The notes below the pieces were generated by a model. The model was not told the DNA's origin. It saw only the letters and a list, made by a program, of their open reading frames with translations, and did no database searches. 37,844 nt of DNA, from contig CADCTD010000167.1 of the NCBI GenBank assembly GCA_902805545.1, positions 1 to 37,844 of the forward strand, read 5' to 3'. This document shows, in pieces, positions 3,995 through 23,712 of the stretch. This DNA comes from an uncultured Craurococcus sp. GTDB lineage: Bacteria > Pseudomonadota > Alphaproteobacteria > Acetobacterales > Acetobacteraceae. Each line of letters opens with the position of its first letter. Position 1 is the stretch's first letter. The position numbers were made by a program, and so were the translations under genes.

Positions 3995-4162
3995 TCCCCT
4001 GCGCAGGCTTGGGATGGTCGGGGACCGTATGTCGCGGGCACGCGCGAGGGCGCGGATTTCTATCGGGAGAACCTGCCCAAGTATAGCAGCTGGATCATCG
4101 TTCAGCGTGAGACGATCACCGTTCAGGAGGCGCTGCGATGGCTGGATGGCAGGGTCCAGTAG
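3995..4162 (+). pseudogene. Possible C-terminal remnant of a decayed gene
   Basis: Between a TGA at 3992 and a TAG at 4160-4162, the plus strand reads as a convincing protein end: segments GTREGADFYRENLPKYSSW and VQEALRWLDGRVQ, with normal codon use. No start codon or upstream continuation exists in this frame. The neighbouring frames over 3840-3990 give short uninterpretable stretches, as if frameshifts or a deletion removed the rest. Its last 40 nt overlap, antisense, the end of the ATP-grasp gene. I do not recognise the parent family. Chance cannot be excluded in such a short frame. Confidence 0.35.
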
Positions 4163-5046
4163 TCCCCTATCACCCGGTCGAAGGTGGTGGGGCTGAAGGG
4201 CGAACACGCATTGCCGTCATAATGGGTGATCTCGCCGAAAAACACCCGGCCACCCACGCAGTAGAGATCGACCCGCGCGAAATCGAACTCCCCGCCGATC
4301 CGCTCCGCCAGACGCAGGGCATCCTGGGTCTCCGCGGGGAGGACATAGTTGGGATTGGGCTCAGGCCTCTGCCGGACCTTCCACGGCTCCAGCCGTTCGT
4401 TATAGCTGTTGGCCTGATGATGGCCATGTCGCCCGGTATGGACACGCAGCAGCCTGACCCGGCCGTGGAAGACGTAAAATTTCAGATCGGCTGGGATGCC
4501 GCCATCCGCATCCAGCAGCATCTCCTCCGCGAGGAGGCGCGGCGTGAGATCACGGTAGGCCCACTCCCCGGCGGTCTCATAATGGTTGTCACGCAGCCAG
4601 CCATTCGCCTGGGAGACGGCGGCGGGGATGTCGAGCACCGTTCGGTCATGGACAAGCAGGTTCATGTTCCAACCGTGGCTGCCCTTGAGCACGAAGCGGT
4701 TGGGTAACTTCTCCCACGCAATGTCCTCTGCGCGGTTCCAGACGCCGAGCAGCGGCACGAGCACGTCCTCTCCGACGCGATCCGCGACATAGCGGCGTGC
4801 GTTAATCTTGTCTGTGGTCAGCGCCAGCAAGGGATTCCGATCATGGAGTATCCGCCAACCAAGCTTTTCGTTGAAAGTCTTCGGTTGAGAAAGATTGGGT
4901 TCATATCCCAGAGCAGCACGCATCCGATAGCGAAGATGTCTCTCTCGCAAAAGCGCGTCCAAGACCGGCATGTACTGGGCAGCTTGACGCACCACACTCC
5001 GTAATGGAGATAATTTCGCTTCAACGGGATGGATGGCCTGAGACAT
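4123..5046 (-). CDS. TupA-like ATP-grasp protein, probably glycan-modifying
   Basis: A 307-residue protein of the TupA-like ATP-grasp group. Visible features are the N-terminal FNEKLGWRILHDRNPLLA block, the nucleotide-binding RFVLKGSHGWNMNLLV, the central LLAEEMLL followed by DLKFYVFHGRV, and the C-terminal metal/ATP segment FDFARVDLYCVGGRVFFGEI. Relatives ligate amino acids or amines to capsule and cell-surface polysaccharides (TupA makes teichuronopeptide), so attachment to a surface glycan is the likely role. GAGG lies 9 nt before the ATG at 5046. Base composition is visibly lower in GC than the neighbours, and the gene stands alone, flanked by a gene remnant and AT-richer spacer, which suggests lateral acquisition. 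Confidence 0.8.
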   Translation of the reverse strand: MSQAIHPVEAKLSPLRSVVRQAAQYMPVLDALLRERHLRYRMRAALGYEPNLSQPKTFNEKLGWRILHDRNPLLALTTDKINARRYVADRVGEDVLVPLLGVWNRAEDIAWEKLPNRFVLKGSHGWNMNLLVHDRTVLDIPAAVSQANGWLRDNHYETAGEWAYRDLTPRLLAEEMLLDADGGIPADLKFYVFHGRVRLLRVHTGRHGHHQANSYNERLEPWKVRQRPEPNPNYVLPAETQDALRLAERIGGEFDFARVDLYCVGGRVFFGEITHYDGNACSPFSPTTFDRVIGDYWTLPSSHRSAS

Positions 5047-16241: not shown

Positions 16242-17678
16242 TCAGGCCTCCCGCAGCGCCCGCGGCCAGCGCCCGCCGAGCAGCACCGCCAGCATCGCCA
16301 CATAGGTCGTGGCGCCGCAGCCGCCGATCATGCTGATCGCCATCAGCGCCGGCTTGCCTTGCACATGCTGCGCCACCAGCAGCGCGACGGCCGCCATGGC
16401 GAGCGTCGCCACGATCGGCACCACGAGCTGCGCGCCGAGCCAGCGCAGCGGCCGCTCCAGCGCGCGCAGGCCGAGGATTACCTGCAACGGCACCACGGCA
16501 AGCGTGCCGCCCACCCAGCAGACCGCGGCCCCGGCCGCATCCGTCGGACGGATGACCACCAGGGCCAGCAGCGGCACGGAGAAGGCGATGAGCTGGGTGA
16601 TGAGGTTCATCCGCGTCCGCCCGAGCGCCAGCCAGAGCGCCGGCGCCGGGCCGATCAGGAAGGCCGGCACCGCCGCCAGCGCCACCAGCCGCGCCGGCTC
16701 CGCCGCCTCCATCCACGGGCCGCCCATCAGCAGGGTGATGAGTTGCGGTGCGGTGATGGCGAGCCCGACCGCGATCGGCAGGCCGATCAGCGCCTGGAGC
16801 TGCGCCAGGTCGCCATAGCATTCGGCCAGTGCGTCCCGGTCATGCTGCAGGGCGGAGAGGCGCGGCATGGCAAGGCGGGACGAGGCGCCGGCCACCACCG
16901 ACATCGAGACATCGAGCAGGCGGAAGGCGATATGCGTCACCGCCACCACCGTCTCCGCCACCATCATGCCGAGGACGAGGATGAAGATGCGGTAGCGCCC
17001 GTTCAGCACCAGCAGCGCCAGGATCTGCGGCCCGGCGATCGGCCAGAGGTCGTTGATCGCCGCCCGGTCCAGCATCAGCTTCGGCCGCCAGCCGGAGAGC
17101 AGGGTGAGGAGGAGGAAGACGCCGAGCGTCGCCGCCACCTGCTGCACCACCATCGCCCAGGGACCCCAGCCGGCGCTGGCGGCCAGCATGCCGAGCCCGA
17201 CCGAGAGCGGCTGGCAGATGAGCACCCGCTGCGCCAGCAGCCGGTAGCGCCGCGCCCGGAGCGCCAGCGCCGCCAGCATCCCGGAGGCGGCGGAGAAGGG
17301 CAGCAGCAGCGCCAGCACCTGGATCATGTCGGCCAGGACAGGCGCGCCGATGGCATGGGCGATCAGCGGCGCCGCAAGGCTGAGGCCGAGCAGGCCGATG
17401 AGCGCAACGCCCATGGTCACCCAGAATGCGGAGGAACGGTGCCGCTCCTCGAGGTCCCGGCGCTGGAGCAGCGAATCTCCGAAGAGCGCGGCGATCGGGA
17501 AGTCGATGGTGAGGAAGGCGCTGGCCGCGATGGCACCGATGCCCGCCGCCTCCGGCCCGATCAGCCGGGCGATGAAGAGCAGGCCGACGAGAGAGAAGGC
17601 GGCCGAGCCCAGCGTCTCCGCCGCCACCCAGGCGGGCGAGCCGGTGGCAGGCAGCTTCCGCCGCACCAATCCGATCAT
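16242..17678 (-). CDS. Wzx-type oligosaccharide flippase (MOP superfamily)
   Basis: A 478-residue integral membrane protein with about 12-14 hydrophobic segments over its whole length. The N-terminal ETLGSAAFSLVGLLFIARLIGP and FPIAALFGDSLLQRRDLEER segments resemble the WzxC/polysaccharide-synthesis group. It should move undecaprenyl-linked glycans or glycolipids from the cytoplasmic to the periplasmic side of the inner membrane. It lies 150 nt downstream of the DprE2-like gene on the same strand, so it may export the product of that pathway or a glycan carrying it. The gap could hold a separate promoter. Confidence 0.87.
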   Translation of the reverse strand: MIGLVRRKLPATGSPAWVAAETLGSAAFSLVGLLFIARLIGPEAAGIGAIAASAFLTIDFPIAALFGDSLLQRRDLEERHRSSAFWVTMGVALIGLLGLSLAAPLIAHAIGAPVLADMIQVLALLLPFSAASGMLAALALRARRYRLLAQRVLICQPLSVGLGMLAASAGWGPWAMVVQQVAATLGVFLLLTLLSGWRPKLMLDRAAINDLWPIAGPQILALLVLNGRYRIFILVLGMMVAETVVAVTHIAFRLLDVSMSVVAGASSRLAMPRLSALQHDRDALAECYGDLAQLQALIGLPIAVGLAITAPQLITLLMGGPWMEAAEPARLVALAAVPAFLIGPAPALWLALGRTRMNLITQLIAFSVPLLALVVIRPTDAAGAAVCWVGGTLAVVPLQVILGLRALERPLRWLGAQLVVPIVATLAMAAVALLVAQHVQGKPALMAISMIGGCGATTYVAMLAVLLGGRWPRALREA

Positions 17679-17828: not shown

Positions 17829-18572
17829 TCAGATATTCAGCTTATTGAAGATCGGGGTCGGCAGGAGCCGAATGATGGTCATCACCGGCCACCATATGCC
17901 GGGGAGGTAGGCGCTACCGCCCCCCTTCCCCGCCCGCTGCCACGCCGCCGCGGCGAAGCCGCGGGGCGAGGCCATGAAGGGCAGCTTCGGCAGGGCCCAG
18001 GTCATCCCCGTATCCACTGGCCCGGCCTTGATACAGAGCACCCGCACGCCGGCACCCGAGAGCCGCGCCGCATAGCCCTGCAGGTAGACCAGCAGCGCCG
18101 CCTTGGTGGCACCGTAGAGGAAATTGCGCTTCCGCCCACGGTCGCCGGCAACCGAGCCCAGGGCGACGACCGTGCCGCCCCGCTGCGCCTCCAGCACCGG
18201 GGCGAGGGCGCCGAGCACGGAGGCGGCGCCGGTGAAATTGGCCTCGACCATGCCGGCGGCGACCTCGGGGTCGGCATCCGCCGCCGCCTGGTCGGGCATC
18301 ACGCCGAAGGCGAGGAAGACGTTCAGCAGCCCGTCGCCCGCCCGGCGCCGGCATTCCGCGACGAAGCCGGCATGGGTGGCGAGGTCGCGCGCCTCGAAGC
18401 GAAGCGGCATGGCGGGCACGCCGTAGCGGATGGCGAGGTCGGCGGCCTGGTGCTCCAGATCCTCCATGTCGCGCCCGGCGAGCACCAGCGCCGCGCCATG
18501 CGAGGCGGCCTCCCGCGCGAAGGCCCGTGCCACCGCCGAGGAGGCGCCGAGGATCACCCAGGTGTCGCTCAC
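17829..18572 (-). CDS. DprE2-like polyprenyl-phospho-ketoribose reductase (SDR)
   Basis: A 247-residue SDR resembling mycobacterial DprE2, which reduces decaprenylphosphoryl-2-keto-ribose to the arabinofuranose form with NADH. The cofactor loop is unusual for an SDR (GASSAVAR, 9-16), as in DprE2. The catalytic set is S140, Y153 and K157 (NFLYGATKAA). The tail, with PVMTIIRLLPTPIFNKLNI, matches the membrane-associating end of DprE2 proteins. It starts at GTG 18572, overlapping the stop of the DprE1-like gene by 4 nt. The assignment rests on sequence resemblance plus the invariant DprE1 neighbour. Confidence 0.85.
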   Translation of the reverse strand: MSDTWVILGASSAVARAFAREAASHGAALVLAGRDMEDLEHQAADLAIRYGVPAMPLRFEARDLATHAGFVAECRRRAGDGLLNVFLAFGVMPDQAAADADPEVAAGMVEANFTGAASVLGALAPVLEAQRGGTVVALGSVAGDRGRKRNFLYGATKAALLVYLQGYAARLSGAGVRVLCIKAGPVDTGMTWALPKLPFMASPRGFAAAAWQRAGKGGGSAYLPGIWWPVMTIIRLLPTPIFNKLNI

Positions 18573-19930
18573 AGGCCGATCCTCCGCGCCATGTCGGAGG
18601 AGAGGCGGCGCTGGGGATCGACCCGCTCCCGCACCGCCCGGAACTCGCCGGCCCGCGGATACATGGCGGCGAAGCCCTCGGCCGAGAGCAGGCTGTCCTT
18701 GGCCAGATAGATCCGCCCGCCGGAATCTCGGGTGATGCGCTCCAGCTGGGTGAAGATCGCCTCGCTGCCCGGACGGGCCGGGATGTCGAGGGCGAGGGAA
18801 TAGCCAGGCATGCCGAAGGAGAGCATCCCCGGCCCGTCCCGGCCCATGACCTTCAGCACGGCGAGGAAGGAGGCATTGCCGCCCGCCGCCACCGTCTCCA
18901 GCAGCCGCCGCAGCGCCGCCTCGCCGGGGCCGGGCGGGACCACGCACTGGAACTGGCGGAAGCCCTGCTTGCCGTACATCCGGTTCCAGCCATCGATCGC
19001 GTCGAGCGGGTAGAGGAACTGGCGGTAGGGCACCGTCGCCTGCTGCCCGGCAGCCGGCACGCGGCGCCAGTAGAGCTCGTTGAAGGCGCGGACGCTGAGC
19101 CCGTTCAGCAGCCAGCCCGGCGCGTCGACCGGGAAGCGCCGCGCCCTTGGCGGACGGGATTCGACGCGCGCCTCGCTCGGCTCCGCCGTCTCCAGCACGC
19201 CGCGGCCGAGGGAGGCGCCGCCGGCCAGCGCATCGATCCAGCCGACCGACCATGTGGCGCCGGCCGCCGCCTCGAAGGCCGCCAGGAACCCATCGAGGTT
19301 GCGGACGCGCCGCCGGCTCACCGCGAGCGCGTTGGAGGGCACCCGCGTCAGCCGAAGGCAGAGGGCGGCGACGATGCCGGTGAGGCCGATGCCACCGACC
19401 GTCGCCTGGAACAGGGCGGGGTCGCTCTCCGGCGAGACGCGCTGCATCCGCCCATCGGGCAGCAGCAGGTCGAACCAGAGCACATGCTCGCCGAAGCTGC
19501 CGGCATGGTGGTGGTTCTTGCCGTGCACGTCATTCGCCAGCGCGCCGCCGAGCGTCACATGGGAGGTCCCCGGCGAGACCGGGGCGATGAAGCCGCGCGG
19601 CAGGAAGACCTCGAGCAGGTCGGCGAAGGTGACGCCGGGCTCCGCCACCAGCTCGCCCGTCGCCGGGTCGAAGCCGAGGATGCGGTCGAGCCGCCCGGTG
19701 ACGACCACGGCGCCGTCGGTGTTGAGCGCCGCATCGCCGTAGCTGCGCCCGCCGCCATGGGCGATGAGCGTCCGCCCCTCCGGCGCGTCGAGCGCGGCGT
19801 GCAGCTCGCGCAGCCGCTCCGGCCTCGCCGCGAGGCAGGGGCTGAGGCTGGAGCGGCCCCAGCCCTGCAACGAAACCTGCTTCCAGCCAGTGGGGCGCGT
19901 CGCCGCGGGTGCGGCCAGCGTATCGGGCAT
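18569..19930 (-). CDS. DprE1-like polyprenyl-phospho-ribose 2-oxidase
   Basis: A 453-residue FAD-dependent oxidase of the VAO fold resembling DprE1, which oxidises the 2-hydroxyl of decaprenylphosphoryl-ribose. FAD-binding elements are AHGGGRSYGDAALN (57-70) and SPGTSHVTLGGALANDVHGK, with H136-G-K-N-H-H as in DprE1. The active-site lysine is K411 (YLAKDS) and the ending is DPQRRLSSDMARRIGL. The position of the mycobacterial benzothiazinone-binding Cys387 (GWNICVDFP) is Ala380 here (GYSLALDIP). ATG 19930 follows the UbiA fusion stop by 11 nt; upstream codons of the open frame lie in that gene and were rejected. Confidence 0.9.
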   Translation of the reverse strand: MPDTLAAPAATRPTGWKQVSLQGWGRSSLSPCLAARPERLRELHAALDAPEGRTLIAHGGGRSYGDAALNTDGAVVVTGRLDRILGFDPATGELVAEPGVTFADLLEVFLPRGFIAPVSPGTSHVTLGGALANDVHGKNHHHAGSFGEHVLWFDLLLPDGRMQRVSPESDPALFQATVGGIGLTGIVAALCLRLTRVPSNALAVSRRRVRNLDGFLAAFEAAAGATWSVGWIDALAGGASLGRGVLETAEPSEARVESRPPRARRFPVDAPGWLLNGLSVRAFNELYWRRVPAAGQQATVPYRQFLYPLDAIDGWNRMYGKQGFRQFQCVVPPGPGEAALRRLLETVAAGGNASFLAVLKVMGRDGPGMLSFGMPGYSLALDIPARPGSEAIFTQLERITRDSGGRIYLAKDSLLSAEGFAAMYPRAGEFRAVRERVDPQRRLSSDMARRIGL

Positions 19931-19941
19931 ACCCTTTTGTC

Positions 19942-21396
19942 CTACAGCGCGAGGACGATGGCGGCGGCGGCGATCGCGCCGATGCCCCATGACCAGGGGT
20001 CACGCAGCGCGAAGACCACCGGATCATGCTGCAGCTCCCGGCGATGCGCGAGCAGCCAGATGCGCATCAGCCAGACCGCGACCGCGCCAGGAGCCACGTA
20101 AAGCCAGGCGGGATGCGTATACATCCGCGAGGGCAGCGCATCATTGGCGACATAGAGGATCATGATCTGCAGGGCGCCGATCCCCGCCGCCGCGCCGAAG
20201 CCGAGGGTCAGTGGCCAGTCGTCCACCTGCCAGCCGCGCCGGGCGAGGCCGCCGCTCTCCTTGGCTTCCATAAGCTCGCAATGCCGCTTGGCCAGCGCCA
20301 GGGAGAAGAAGAAGAAGCCGGCGAAGGCGACCAGCCAGGGCGAGTAGGCGACGTCGGCCAGCTCGATGCCGAGCGAGAGCCGCATGGTGAAGAGAGCCGC
20401 GATGGTCAGCGTGTCGATCAGCGCGATGCGCTTCAGCCCGCCGGAATAGAGCAGCGACAGGCCGCAATAGCCGATGATGGCAACCGAGAGCATCGGCCGG
20501 AACAGCAGCGGCGCCAGCAGGGCGAAGGTGATCAGCCCGATCGCCACGGCCAGCGCATGCAGCGGCCGGATGCGGCCGGAGGCGATGGCCCGATGCCGCT
20601 TCTTGCGGTGCTGCCGGTCCGAGTTGAGGTCGGCCAGGTCGTTCAGCAGATAGGTGCCGGAGGCGGCGAGGCTCAGCAGCAGCATCCCGAGCACGCAGTG
20701 CAGGATCGCCGTCGGGTCGTGCAGCTTGTGGCCGAGGAGCAGCGGCACCAGCACCAGGACGTTCTTCGACCACTGGTGGATTCGCAGGGCGCTGAGCCAG
20801 GTGCGCAGCCGCGAGCCCTCGGGCGGGAATTCGGCGACGACGACGGGGTTCACGCTGCGCGCCGCGGCCGTGGTCGCCGGGCTCGCATTCACCAGCACGA
20901 TCTCCGAGGCGGCGGCGAAGACCGGCAGGTCGTGCCGGCTGTCGCCCGCATAGGCGAAGCCATCGGGGAAGGAGCGGCGGAGGAATTCCGCCTTCTCCTC
21001 GCTCCGCAGGTTGCGCGTGCCGTCGCTGCCCGTCGCGCTGCGGAACAGGCCGACATGGGCGGCGACGGCATCGGCGATCGCCTGGTCGGCGGCAGTGACG
21101 AGATGCAGTTCGCGGCCGAGATTATGCTGCTCGCGCAGCCAGTCGAGGAAGGGTTGGCGCAGCGGCAGCCCCGCCGCATCGGCGGGCGCCTGCTGGCTGA
21201 CACGGCGCTTGAAGGCGGCCCGGCCCTCGGGCAGGCTTCGCAACAGGCCGGGAAAGGCTGCCGGGCTGTGCAGCAGCGCCTCGACCAGTCCTTCGTGCAG
21301 CGTATCGGTCGCGAGCAGCGTCCCATCGAGATCGACGGCAAGCGGCAACAGCCGCGCCGTCCCGGGAAGCGCCTCGCTCGTCTGCACGCCCTGCAT
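19942..21396 (-). CDS. HAD phosphatase-UbiA prenyltransferase fusion (DPPR-synthase-like)
   Basis: A 484-residue two-domain protein. Residues about 15-190 are a HAD phosphatase: VDLDGTLL with the nucleophile pair D22/D24, a Thr in LVTAAD (T101), and AGDSRHDLPVF for Mg. Residues about 200-484 are a UbiA-type polytopic membrane domain with NDLADLNSD (N252, D256, D260), followed by RHRAIASG and YSGGLKRIALID. These closely resemble mycobacterial Rv3806c, which joins PRPP to decaprenyl phosphate. By inference the HAD part removes the 5-phosphate of the product, the step that precedes DprE1. First gene of the minus-strand unit; ATG 21396 has no obvious SD. Confidence 0.88.
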   Translation of the reverse strand: MQGVQTSEALPGTARLLPLAVDLDGTLLATDTLHEGLVEALLHSPAAFPGLLRSLPEGRAAFKRRVSQQAPADAAGLPLRQPFLDWLREQHNLGRELHLVTAADQAIADAVAAHVGLFRSATGSDGTRNLRSEEKAEFLRRSFPDGFAYAGDSRHDLPVFAAASEIVLVNASPATTAAARSVNPVVVAEFPPEGSRLRTWLSALRIHQWSKNVLVLVPLLLGHKLHDPTAILHCVLGMLLLSLAASGTYLLNDLADLNSDRQHRKKRHRAIASGRIRPLHALAVAIGLITFALLAPLLFRPMLSVAIIGYCGLSLLYSGGLKRIALIDTLTIAALFTMRLSLGIELADVAYSPWLVAFAGFFFFSLALAKRHCELMEAKESGGLARRGWQVDDWPLTLGFGAAAGIGALQIMILYVANDALPSRMYTHPAWLYVAPGAVAVWLMRIWLLAHRRELQHDPVVFALRDPWSWGIGAIAAAAIVLAL

Positions 21397-21706
21397 TCAA
21401 CAACCCGATCCTATGACGCGGTGCAAAATCACACCCGGCTCGGGTTTCGGGTAATGCCATTGGCGTGAGACCTGCGGCATCACGGAGAAACGTCCCGCAG
21501 CGCACACTAAGGTTTGACCGGACAGGGCCGGACGCCAATGCAACTTTGGCGCGGGCACGATCCGATGTGCGCACGCAACGCAACGTGACTGCAGCTCCGG
21601 CGCAGCAAGGGCGGCGCGACCTTTCATTCGCATGCGCACCGCTCCTATTTTCGGGCGGCTTCCGGGAAAACGGCGGATGCAGGATACGGTCACTACCGAG
21701 GACAGG
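21397..21706. other. Divergent regulatory region of the glycan module
   Basis: About 310 nt between the start of the HAD-UbiA gene and the chosen start of the first GT2 gene. It is moderately less GC-rich than the flanks. In-frame ATGs at 21632 and 21677 make a longer GT2 N-terminus possible, so the true gap may be shorter. Short TTGAC-like elements can be found, but none has a convincing partner box, so I call no promoter. No RNA gene or repeat is seen. Confidence 0.5.
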
Positions 21707-22795
21707 ATGACAACGACACACCATGGCGAGGCGGCAGCGCCACCCGCCGCCCGCGTGCCGAGCGTCACCGCCTGCTTGGTCACGCATGACCGGCCGCACT
21801 ACGTGCGCAGCTGTCTCGAGAGCCTGCGCCAGCAGACGGTCGGCCCGGATGGCTTCGACATCATCGTCGTCGACAGCTGCAGCAGCCCGGCGGTGAGCGA
21901 GGAGCTCGCCGCCATGGTCGCGCCGCTGCCGAATGCGCGGCTGCTGCGGGTCGACCGGCCGGGTGCCAGCGCCGCGCGCAACCGCGGCGCCGAGGCGAGC
22001 GAGGCGGATTTCATCGCCTATCTCGACGACGACGCGCTGGCGATGCCGGACTGGATCGAGCGGATCCAGGAGGTGGCCGCGACCCGCGACCCATGGCCGG
22101 GCGTGCTGGCCGGGCGCGTGCTGCCGGTCTGGGAGGCGCCGCTGCCGGGCTGGTGGCCCGAGAGCCTGCGCGGCGTGCTCTCCATCATCGAATGGGAGGG
22201 CGTGGGCGAGTTCCGCACGCCGCAGGTGCCTGACGGGCTCGAGCCCTACGGCGTCAACATGATCGTGCAGCGCCGGCCGCTGCTGGAGATGGGCGGCTTC
22301 GCCGACCGGCTCGGCCGCGTCGGCAAGCTGCTGCTCTCGGACGAGGATGTGCAGGTCGGCTGGCGGCTGCAGGATCGCGGCTACTCGGCCTGGTATGACA
22401 GCCGCATCGTGGTGCGCCACCAGATCCAGGCCCGGCGCATGCGGCCCGAATGGCTGCTGGACCGGCTCTACTGGCAGGGCGCCTCGACGGTCGCCACGCG
22501 GCGCATCCTCGGCGCGCCGGAGCAGGTCTGGCGCGAGCTGCCGCGCCGCCTCCTCGTCGAGGCGATCACCCTGCCGGCGGCGCTGCTGCCGCCAGGCAGC
22601 ACGGCGCTGCTGGCCTTGCGCTGGCGCCTCGCCTATGCGCGCGGCTTCACCCGCATGGCGCTGATGGGCGAGCACAGGAAGCGCACCCTCCCCGTCCGCC
22701 TGCTGCGCGCCCTGCTGCGCCGCGACGGCGAGCCGATCATCCCGACCCTCGATATCGGCGCCCGCGCCGATGAAGCCGGCAAGACCCATCGATGA
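21707..22795 (+). CDS. Family 2 glycosyltransferase
   Basis: A 362-residue GT-A fold glycosyltransferase. The N-terminal nucleotide-sugar site is SVTACLVTHDRPHYVRSCLE, then FDIIVVDSCSS, and the metal-binding motif is AYLDDDALAMPDW. An acceptor-side DEDVQVGWRL motif follows. The C-terminal third is basic, with a hydrophobic stretch (LPAALLPPGSTALLALRW) that may sit on the membrane. The sugar and acceptor are unknown. ATG 21707 has GAGGA just 4 nt upstream; 21677 and 21632 are alternatives. It overlaps the second GT2 gene (ATGA) and diverges from the arabinofuranose-donor genes, so both may build the same surface glycan. Confidence 0.87.
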   Translation: MTTTHHGEAAAPPAARVPSVTACLVTHDRPHYVRSCLESLRQQTVGPDGFDIIVVDSCSSPAVSEELAAMVAPLPNARLLRVDRPGASAARNRGAEASEADFIAYLDDDALAMPDWIERIQEVAATRDPWPGVLAGRVLPVWEAPLPGWWPESLRGVLSIIEWEGVGEFRTPQVPDGLEPYGVNMIVQRRPLLEMGGFADRLGRVGKLLLSDEDVQVGWRLQDRGYSAWYDSRIVVRHQIQARRMRPEWLLDRLYWQGASTVATRRILGAPEQVWRELPRRLLVEAITLPAALLPPGSTALLALRWRLAYARGFTRMALMGEHRKRTLPVRLLRALLRRDGEPIIPTLDIGARADEAGKTHR

Positions 22796-23712
22796 CCGAG
22801 CCTGCCGTCACCGTCTTCTTCGCCACCCGCAACCGGGCGCATGCCATCCCCCGCGTGCTGGAGGCCTTCACCGGGCTGCAGTCGCCGGAGGGGGGCTGGA
22901 AGCTCGTCGTCATCGACAATGGCAGCAGCGACGGCACGCTCGAGGTGCTGCAGGGCTTCGCCGGCCGGCTGCCGCTGACCATCCTCTCCTGCCCGAAGCC
23001 CGGCAAGAACCGCGCGCTGAACCTCGCCCTGCCGGAGCTCCGCGGCCGCCTCGCCGTCTTCACCGATGACGACGTGCTGCCGGACGCCGATTGGCTCATC
23101 CGCCTGCAGGCGGCGGCCGATGCGCATCCGGAGGCCGATCTCTTCGGCGGCACCGTGCTGCCCGACTGGCCGCGGCCGAAGCCGGACTGGCTCTCGGAGG
23201 AGGTCGTCGAGTTCAGCGTGCTCTACGCCCAGCAGCGCCGGCCGAGCGGGCCTTGCGGCTTCGCCGACATCTTCGGCCCGAACATGGCGATCCGCGCCGA
23301 CCTCTTCCGCGCCGGGACGCGCTTCGCCGAGCATGTCGGGCCGGACGGCACCAATCCGCTCTATGCCATGGGCAGCGAGACGGAGCTGCTGCGCCGGCTG
23401 GAGGCGGCCGGGCATCGCGGCTGGTTCGAGGCCACGGCGCGCGTCCGCCACATCATCCGCCCGGAGCAGATGGAGGAGGGCTGGATCCTCGACCGCGCCT
23501 TCCGCTACGGCGTCGGCGAGGGCCGCAACTATGCCGGCGGCGGGACGCCGAAGGACATCCTGCGCCGCGTCGTCTATCGCGTCGCCGCGCAGGGGATGCG
23601 GCTGATGCCGCCCTCGCCGCGGCGCCTGCGCATCCGCTATCGCGACCGCTGGCTGGCCGGCGTCGCCGCCGGGCGGCCGGCCCAGCAGGAGCAGGGCGCT
23701 ACTCCGCAGTAA
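22792..23712 (+). CDS. Family 2 glycosyltransferase
   Basis: A 306-residue GT-A glycosyltransferase related to its upstream neighbour. It begins with TVFFATRNRAHAIPRVLEAF, has LVVIDNGSSDGT, the KPGKNRALN loop and the metal motif VFTDDDVLPDADW. A conserved SETELLRRLEAAGH supplies the acceptor-side acid. It has no membrane helix and is probably cytoplasmic or peripheral. It starts within an ATGA overlap with the preceding gene, so the two are coupled. Its last 14 nt overlap the convergent TctC gene. Donor and acceptor are unknown. Confidence 0.88.
   Translation: MTEPAVTVFFATRNRAHAIPRVLEAFTGLQSPEGGWKLVVIDNGSSDGTLEVLQGFAGRLPLTILSCPKPGKNRALNLALPELRGRLAVFTDDDVLPDADWLIRLQAAADAHPEADLFGGTVLPDWPRPKPDWLSEEVVEFSVLYAQQRRPSGPCGFADIFGPNMAIRADLFRAGTRFAEHVGPDGTNPLYAMGSETELLRRLEAAGHRGWFEATARVRHIIRPEQMEEGWILDRAFRYGVGEGRNYAGGGTPKDILRRVVYRVAAQGMRLMPPSPRRLRIRYRDRWLAGVAAGRPAQQEQGATPQ

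Follow-up and report, generated by a model that had tools for sequence, protein, structure and literature searches.

Does an environmental alphaproteobacterium assemble a lipid-linked D-arabinofuranose donor, and does it join the first two activities of that pathway in one polypeptide? The question is raised by positions 17829-21396 of a 37,844-nucleotide contig (CADCTD010000167.1, assembly GCA_902805545.1) from an uncultured Craurococcus sp. of the Acetobacteraceae; the whole of this contig is hereafter called the window. On the minus strand of this region lies a tight operon, recognized from its open reading frames (ORFs) and from Pfam and NCBIfam matches, that encodes a HAD-UbiA fusion, a DprE1-like oxidase and a DprE2-like short-chain dehydrogenase/reductase (SDR). 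Judging from the sequence, the operon very probably makes polyprenyl-phospho-D-arabinofuranose, which would be used to arabinosylate a surface glycan.

In the proposed pathway, the reactions would occur at the cytoplasmic face on a lipid that is presumably undecaprenyl. The UbiA domain would move 5-phosphoribose from 5-phosphoribosyl-1-pyrophosphate (PRPP) onto polyprenyl phosphate, and the fused HAD domain would remove the 5'-phosphate of the product. DprE1 would then oxidize C2 with flavin adenine dinucleotide (FAD) to yield a 2-keto sugar, which DprE2 would reduce with the opposite stereochemistry to give the arabino sugar. The resulting donor would supply arabinose for a surface glycan that is probably made with the help of the neighbouring glycosyltransferase family 2 (GT2) enzymes and MOP flippase. 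We infer all these activities for the host organism, as well as the lipid, the role of the flippase and the acceptor.

The original prediction described three overlapping or near-touching minus-strand genes, and this layout was confirmed by the ORFs, by Pfam and NCBIfam and by refinement of the start codons. Pfam places a HAD domain (PF12710) at residues 21-159 of the fusion and a UbiA domain (PF01040) at residues 222-462, and the protein exceeds the cut-off of the curated NCBIfam family NF006088/PRK08238 (534.9 bits, cut-off 351). That model, named 'UbiA family prenyltransferase', covers both domains, and its name gives no function. The DprE1-like ORF carries FAD_binding_4 and ALO domains, and the DprE2-like ORF an adh_short domain. 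The longest DprE1 frame (18569-19990) encodes 473 amino acids from its first ATG; the probable start, the ATG at 19930, lies 11 nucleotides beyond the fusion stop and is preceded by an AAAAGGG stretch. The GTG at 18572 that opens DprE2 shares the four nucleotides GTGA with the end of DprE1.

This gene trio recurs well beyond the window. A scan of named genomes yielded at least 572 stretches that encode relatives of the fusion; the best 80 were retained for analysis, and in each of these the alignment extends over both domains. The closest named relative among the matches listed is from Belnapia arida, at 94% identity. Within these best 80 of at least 572 loci, DprE1 is present in 44 and DprE2 in 40, and in every locus with both partners (40 of 40) HAD-UbiA is followed on one strand by DprE1 and then DprE2. 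Such a fixed order and orientation places the arrangement beyond chance. Within the taxonomic order, 31 of 200 genomes were matched, that of the host included, and the 30 other loci carry DprE1 in 12 cases and DprE2 in 10. In a sample of the phylum, the UbiA domain was matched in 57 of 398 genomes. This patchy occurrence fits that typical of surface-glycan genes. One locus (L003) at first resembled a three-enzyme fusion, with an open frame of 1287 codons; this candidate was rejected, since the extra length is just open frame upstream and DprE1 has an ORF of its own.

The identity of the sugar depends on the two oxidoreductases. A search of the PDB by sequence matches the first to DprE1 at about 1e-80, and the closest solved structure of the SDR is DprE2 (1.4e-24). 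The DprE1 residues Y60, H132, K134, Q334, Q336, K367 and K418 are kept in all 69 collected loci with DprE1, and the S140/Y153/K157 triad of DprE2 in 60 of 60. For the tested DprE1 residues, including Y60, H132 and K418, we presume the customary numbers and roles. Homologues of DprE1 and DprE2 are linked to arabinofuranose glycans in the survey described in PMC11127046. Because the catalytic residues are conserved and this link is published, D-arabinofuranose is the likely product of the operon, a prediction made from sequence. The proposal that this Gram-negative makes a D-arabinofuranose donor is well supported as a prediction, which also draws on the substrate residues of the UbiA domain and on the assay of the same fused architecture elsewhere.

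Several observations weigh against this assignment. Both curated equivalog models were matched below their cut-offs, at 406 versus 500 bits for DprE1 (NF053785) and 152 versus 250 bits for DprE2 (NF053786), and for this reason we use the names DprE1-like and DprE2-like. Across the 69 loci, Thr or Ser occupies position N385 of DprE1, and at C387 there are 65 Ala and four Thr; the window has Ser and Ala. These departures would suit a lipid-linked product that is another pentose or a keto intermediate, or the transfer of ribose itself. Precedent for such outcomes exists in Citrobacter youngae, where, as PMC11127046 describes it, the fused enzyme ORF15 serves ribofuranose in O1 or, with a different SDR, xylofuranose in O2. 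However, DprE1 and DprE2 are both present here with every catalytic residue tested, their homologues are those tied to arabinofuranose glycans in the survey, and the related HAD-less locus L057 includes a DUF4185 gene. We therefore regard a product other than arabinofuranose as improbable.

Two loci deserve mention in connection with the sugar. L057 (4166-5999) is HAD-less and encodes DprE1 and DprE2 together with a DUF4185 protein and a DUF212 protein. DUF4185 has been shown to be a family of endo-D-arabinofuranases (PMC10115798), which suggests that another member of the same family both produces a D-arabinan and trims it. At L048 (4514-8447), HAD-UbiA and DprE1 are followed by a GT87 protein, and no DprE2 was detected within the 15 kb stretch; identity to the window is 59% for DprE1 and only 38% for HAD-UbiA.

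With D-arabinofuranose as the preferred product, the next question is which enzyme supplies the phosphatase step, which the original prediction assigned to the fused HAD domain. A direct precedent is ORF15 of C. youngae O1, described in PMC11127046 as a PRP-PPPRS fusion that likewise joins an N-terminal HAD domain and UbiA in one polypeptide. According to that description, ORF15 converts PRPP and farnesyl phosphate to farnesyl-phospho-ribose in vitro, and its HAD nucleophile mutant D18A yields mostly the 5-phosphate product with a small amount of dephosphorylated material. Fused phosphatase activity is therefore already established for one family member. D18 corresponds to D22 of the window protein, and N247, D248, D251, D255, R366 and E369 of ORF15 to N252, D253, D256, D260, R371 and E374, at an offset of 4-5 positions; these mutated residues are known from the paper's description and were paired by motif and spacing. 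All seven window residues are invariant in the 22 rows of alignment A1 (window included). The window protein accordingly has the features of a fused PRP-PPPRS of the ORF15 type, with an N-terminal HAD domain that retains its catalytic residues, a UbiA domain, and, recognized by motif and spacing, counterparts of the four residues that ORF15 requires for PPPRS activity (N247, D248, D251 and D255).

Comparison of the HAD active site, a check proposed with the original prediction, found the catalytic residues D22, D24, K135 and D156 present and invariant in all 113 loci in which a HAD domain of the fused type was detected (129 loci examined). No PAP2-family match was found in the host's own genome, a 97% complete draft, and the family was found in 24 of the 31 genomes searched; by position, no PAP2 gene lies next to the UbiA gene in the genomes searched.

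Gene content around fused and HAD-less enzymes points in the same direction. Using profiles on the stretches fetched, a separate PAP2, DUF212 or stand-alone HAD gene was found in none of 116 fused loci. When loci were clustered at 95% identity, a separate HAD or DUF212 gene accompanied 0 of 108 fused clusters versus 11 of 40 HAD-less clusters (Fisher p 1.8e-7), the 11 positives comprising five DUF212 and six HAD genes and no PAP2. Clustering at 70% gave 0 of 81 versus 8 of 31 (Fisher p 1.7e-5). The comparison excluded L055, a broken fusion, and L056, whose stretch has no UbiA; L198, which is cut by a contig end and of unsure status, was counted as HAD-less, and dropping it changes little. The fused stretches are mostly longer than the HAD-less ones, a bias that runs against the result, and clustering removes kinship in part.

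In L184 and L196, the UbiA frame opens within a few bases of where a stand-alone HAD gene stops. L053 and L054 fall among the fused enzymes in our tree, but they lack the HAD domain, and a neighbouring gene specifies a different HAD protein; in L153 a stand-alone HAD gene follows genes that resemble DprE1 and DprE2 by eye. Separately, L055 (8999-10544) is a broken fusion gene, interrupted by a stop and with its HAD and UbiA parts out of frame with each other. L151 seemed HAD-less from its frame length, a reading rejected because the contig end truncates the gene, which is a fusion.

This comparison also has features that count against a phosphatase role. The query sequences for DUF212 and for stand-alone HAD genes were drawn from the HAD-less loci L057, L156, L153 and L053, which favours the result; without these four query clusters, the HAD-less positives become 7 of 36 at 95% identity (p 3.8e-5) and 4 of 27 versus 0 of 81 at 70% (p 0.003). 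A separate phosphatase gene was not seen in 29 of the 40 HAD-less clusters, many of them searched with 1.5 kb flanks only, and the PAP2 profile made for the comparison matched neither fused nor HAD-less loci. Other phosphatases evidently can act, because D18A keeps some dephosphorylated product and because deletion of noeN in Rhizobium IRBG74 only reduces arabinosylation, as recounted in PMC5080398. A HAD domain that acts on another substrate or is regulatory could be accommodated by these facts. It would leave unexplained why the 5-phosphate product accumulates in D18A, why the catalytic residues are invariant and why separate HAD or DUF212 genes occur only beside HAD-less relatives in the sample, and the own genome offers no PAP2 match; we thus consider such a role very unlikely. 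On the basis of ORF15 mutagenesis, invariant catalytic residues, the missing PAP2 match and the fused versus HAD-less comparison, the prediction that the fused HAD domain is the 5'-phosphatase of the lipid product is well supported.

The first step is assigned to the UbiA domain. Against three PRK12324 decaprenyl-phosphate phosphoribosyltransferase models in NCBIfam, the UbiA part scores 127.1, 122.7 and 95.9 bits, whereas competing models are weaker (heme O synthase 33 bits, UbiA 21.5 bits). The fusion's only solved matches in a PDB sequence search (E 0.01) are 8j8j and 8j8k, both Rv3806c (2.9e-23). As described in PMC10994848, Lys28 and Tyr70 of Rv3806c contact the 5'-phosphate, a Lys/Arg cluster the pyrophosphate, and Gln135 the ribose. 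The window equivalents are K211 and Y249 for the first pair and R205, K266, R269 and K322 for the cluster. More broadly, R22, K28, Y70, N73, D77, K87, R90, Y138, K143 and K191 of Rv3806c are kept in all 105 fused rows (window included, the aberrant row L167 excluded) and in 13 of 13 HAD-less rows, and K28, Y70, K87 and K191 are missing or gapped in all three other UbiA proteins of the host genome. A quick tree built from 79 of 123 rows groups the fused enzymes with Rv3806c and the HAD-less relatives, with the genome's other UbiA proteins far outside.

Some details argue for caution about this assignment. All three PRK12324 cut-offs (234, 207 and 474 bits) were missed. The ribose contact Q135 is replaced by Ser314 in the window and by Thr (87), Ser (17) or Ala (1) across the 105 fused rows, and Y157 is Phe in the window and Tyr (66) or Phe (39) among those rows. 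The tree is a quick one whose outgroup branches are very long, which makes its root unsure. Because the Gln135 contact differs, we describe the fusion as related to Rv3806c and predicted to work like it, yet do not class it as the mycobacterial type. That the domain is instead an ordinary quinone, heme or aromatic prenyltransferase beside unrelated oxidoreductases, as the shared PF01040 family and N-D-x-x-D motif might suggest, is barely credible given the model scores, the conserved substrate residues, the tree placement and the three other UbiA proteins in the genome. The grouping with quinone or heme enzymes that would have spoken against the original prediction was thus not seen, and identification of the domain as a polyprenyl-phosphate phosphoribosyltransferase is well supported by its sequence.

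Features of the operon and its flanks, with predicted functions
Feature	Coordinates	Strand	Remarks
HAD-UbiA fusion, 484 aa	19942..21396	-	UbiA domain ~residues 195-484 (polyprenyl-phosphate 5-phosphoribosyltransferase, predicted); HAD ~14-180 (5'-phosphatase, predicted)
DprE1-like FAD oxidase	18569..19930	-	likely start ATG 19930
DprE2-like SDR reductase	17829..18572	-	GTG start; 4-nt overlap with DprE1 stop
MOP/Wzx-type flippase (Polysacc_synt_3)	16242..17678	-	operon-downstream; kept in 5/7 closest named relatives (L071-L077)
GT2 glycosyltransferase a	21632..22795	+	divergent, operon-upstream; in 6/7 closest named relatives (L071-L077)
GT2 glycosyltransferase b	22792..23712	+	divergent, operon-upstream; in 4/7 closest named relatives (L071-L077)

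How the donor would be used is suggested by the flanking genes. The MOP flippase may move the donor or a glycan. The absence of a GT-C-type glycosyltransferase tells against the proposed pathway: no GT-C was found in the window, where three or more hydrophobic stretches occur only in the MOP flippase and the fusion, and neither was a three-component pentofuranose system with a GT-C and a small flippase alongside. The sister clusters L032, L074 and L077 encode a GT-C-like protein between DprE2 and the flippase, recognized by length and hydrophobic stretches with no Pfam match. This protein has no counterpart in the stretch compared from L071-L073 (Belnapia, Paeniroseomonas and Roseicella) and, what again weighs on the negative side, none in the host's own genome when searched with the L032 query and again with an alignment, for which the positive control gave a match. 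Other contigs of that genome give two PMT_2 matches and one GtrA match. At L070 (6506-8047, contig C36 of the own genome), a weak PMT_2-type GT-C follows genes that resemble cellulose synthase subunits by eye, and is a possible glycan-modifying transferase. An unlikely variant for this Acetobacteraceae lineage is that neither a small transporter nor a neighbouring GT-C handles the arabinofuranose donor, which feeds a Wzx-route glycan; the two divergent GT2 enzymes would build its repeat unit, and arabinose might be added from the lipid donor before export. If true, GT-A-type enzymes would here draw, unusually, on a polyprenyl-phosphate sugar.

Some relatives carry a wider cassette, in which HAD-UbiA, DprE1 and DprE2 are accompanied by an NAD-epimerase (PF01370), an amine-oxidase-like flavoprotein (PF01593) and GtrA (L081, L082, L084, L090, L091, L098, L100, L102, L103, L106, L109, L110, L113, L133 and L141). 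The flavoprotein occurs in 15 of the best 80 named loci, always together with DprE1 and DprE2, and may modify the arabinose donor further. In the remainder of the window, the 28 ORFs scanned (some in competing frames) are ordinary genes, including an EF-G-like GTPase, a PfkB-cytidylyltransferase (HldE-like), PPK2, a Clp ATPase, ClpS and an epoxide hydrolase. A TupA-like ATP-grasp gene (4123-5046) has a third-position GC of 0.72, below most genes called in the window, and was possibly acquired from elsewhere.

Much of this pathway has precedent. HAD-UbiA fusions are not new: they form a curated NCBIfam family with wide distribution and published biochemistry (2024, another bacterium), and the DprE1/DprE2 partnership and the general pathway are likewise in print. 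For relatives, both first activities have been placed in one fused polypeptide (ORF15, as described in PMC11127046), and DprE1/DprE2 are documented in mycobacteria. Differences from each known system are nevertheless apparent. ORF15 serves the ribofuranose route or, when paired with ORF13 in O2, the xylofuranose route, whereas the window fusion has DprE1 and DprE2 alongside; the described C. youngae neighbours are a small four-helix flippase and a GT136 GT-C, whereas the window has a MOP flippase, two GT2 enzymes and no GT-C. The mycobacterial Rv3806c/DprE1/DprE2 set carries out the same enzymatic steps in print and shares nearly all tested active-site residues with the window, but Rv3806c is without a HAD domain, uses decaprenyl phosphate and differs at Q135. 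The mycobacterial phosphatase, Rv3807c, is described as a stand-alone protein without relation to the HAD family (PMC11127046). Gram-negative D-arabinofuranosylation is known from noeCHOP of Azorhizobium and noeCNHOP of Rhizobium sp. IRBG74, whose enzymes are reported as orthologous to the mycobacterial ones (PMC5080398). There the proposed phosphatase NoeN is encoded by a separate gene and the acceptor is the Nod factor, a likeness drawn from that paper's description. A literature search combining Acetobacteraceae or Roseomonas with arabinofuranose returned nothing on point among the matches listed.

The comparative evidence indicates that the phosphatase step of this pathway can be filled by a fused HAD domain, a stand-alone HAD protein or a DUF212 (divergent PAP2) protein. 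If the prediction holds, an environmental alphaproteobacterium would share the D-arabinofuranose chemistry known chiefly from the cell walls of mycobacteria. The host organism is a candidate source of an arabinosylated surface glycan that has yet to be described.

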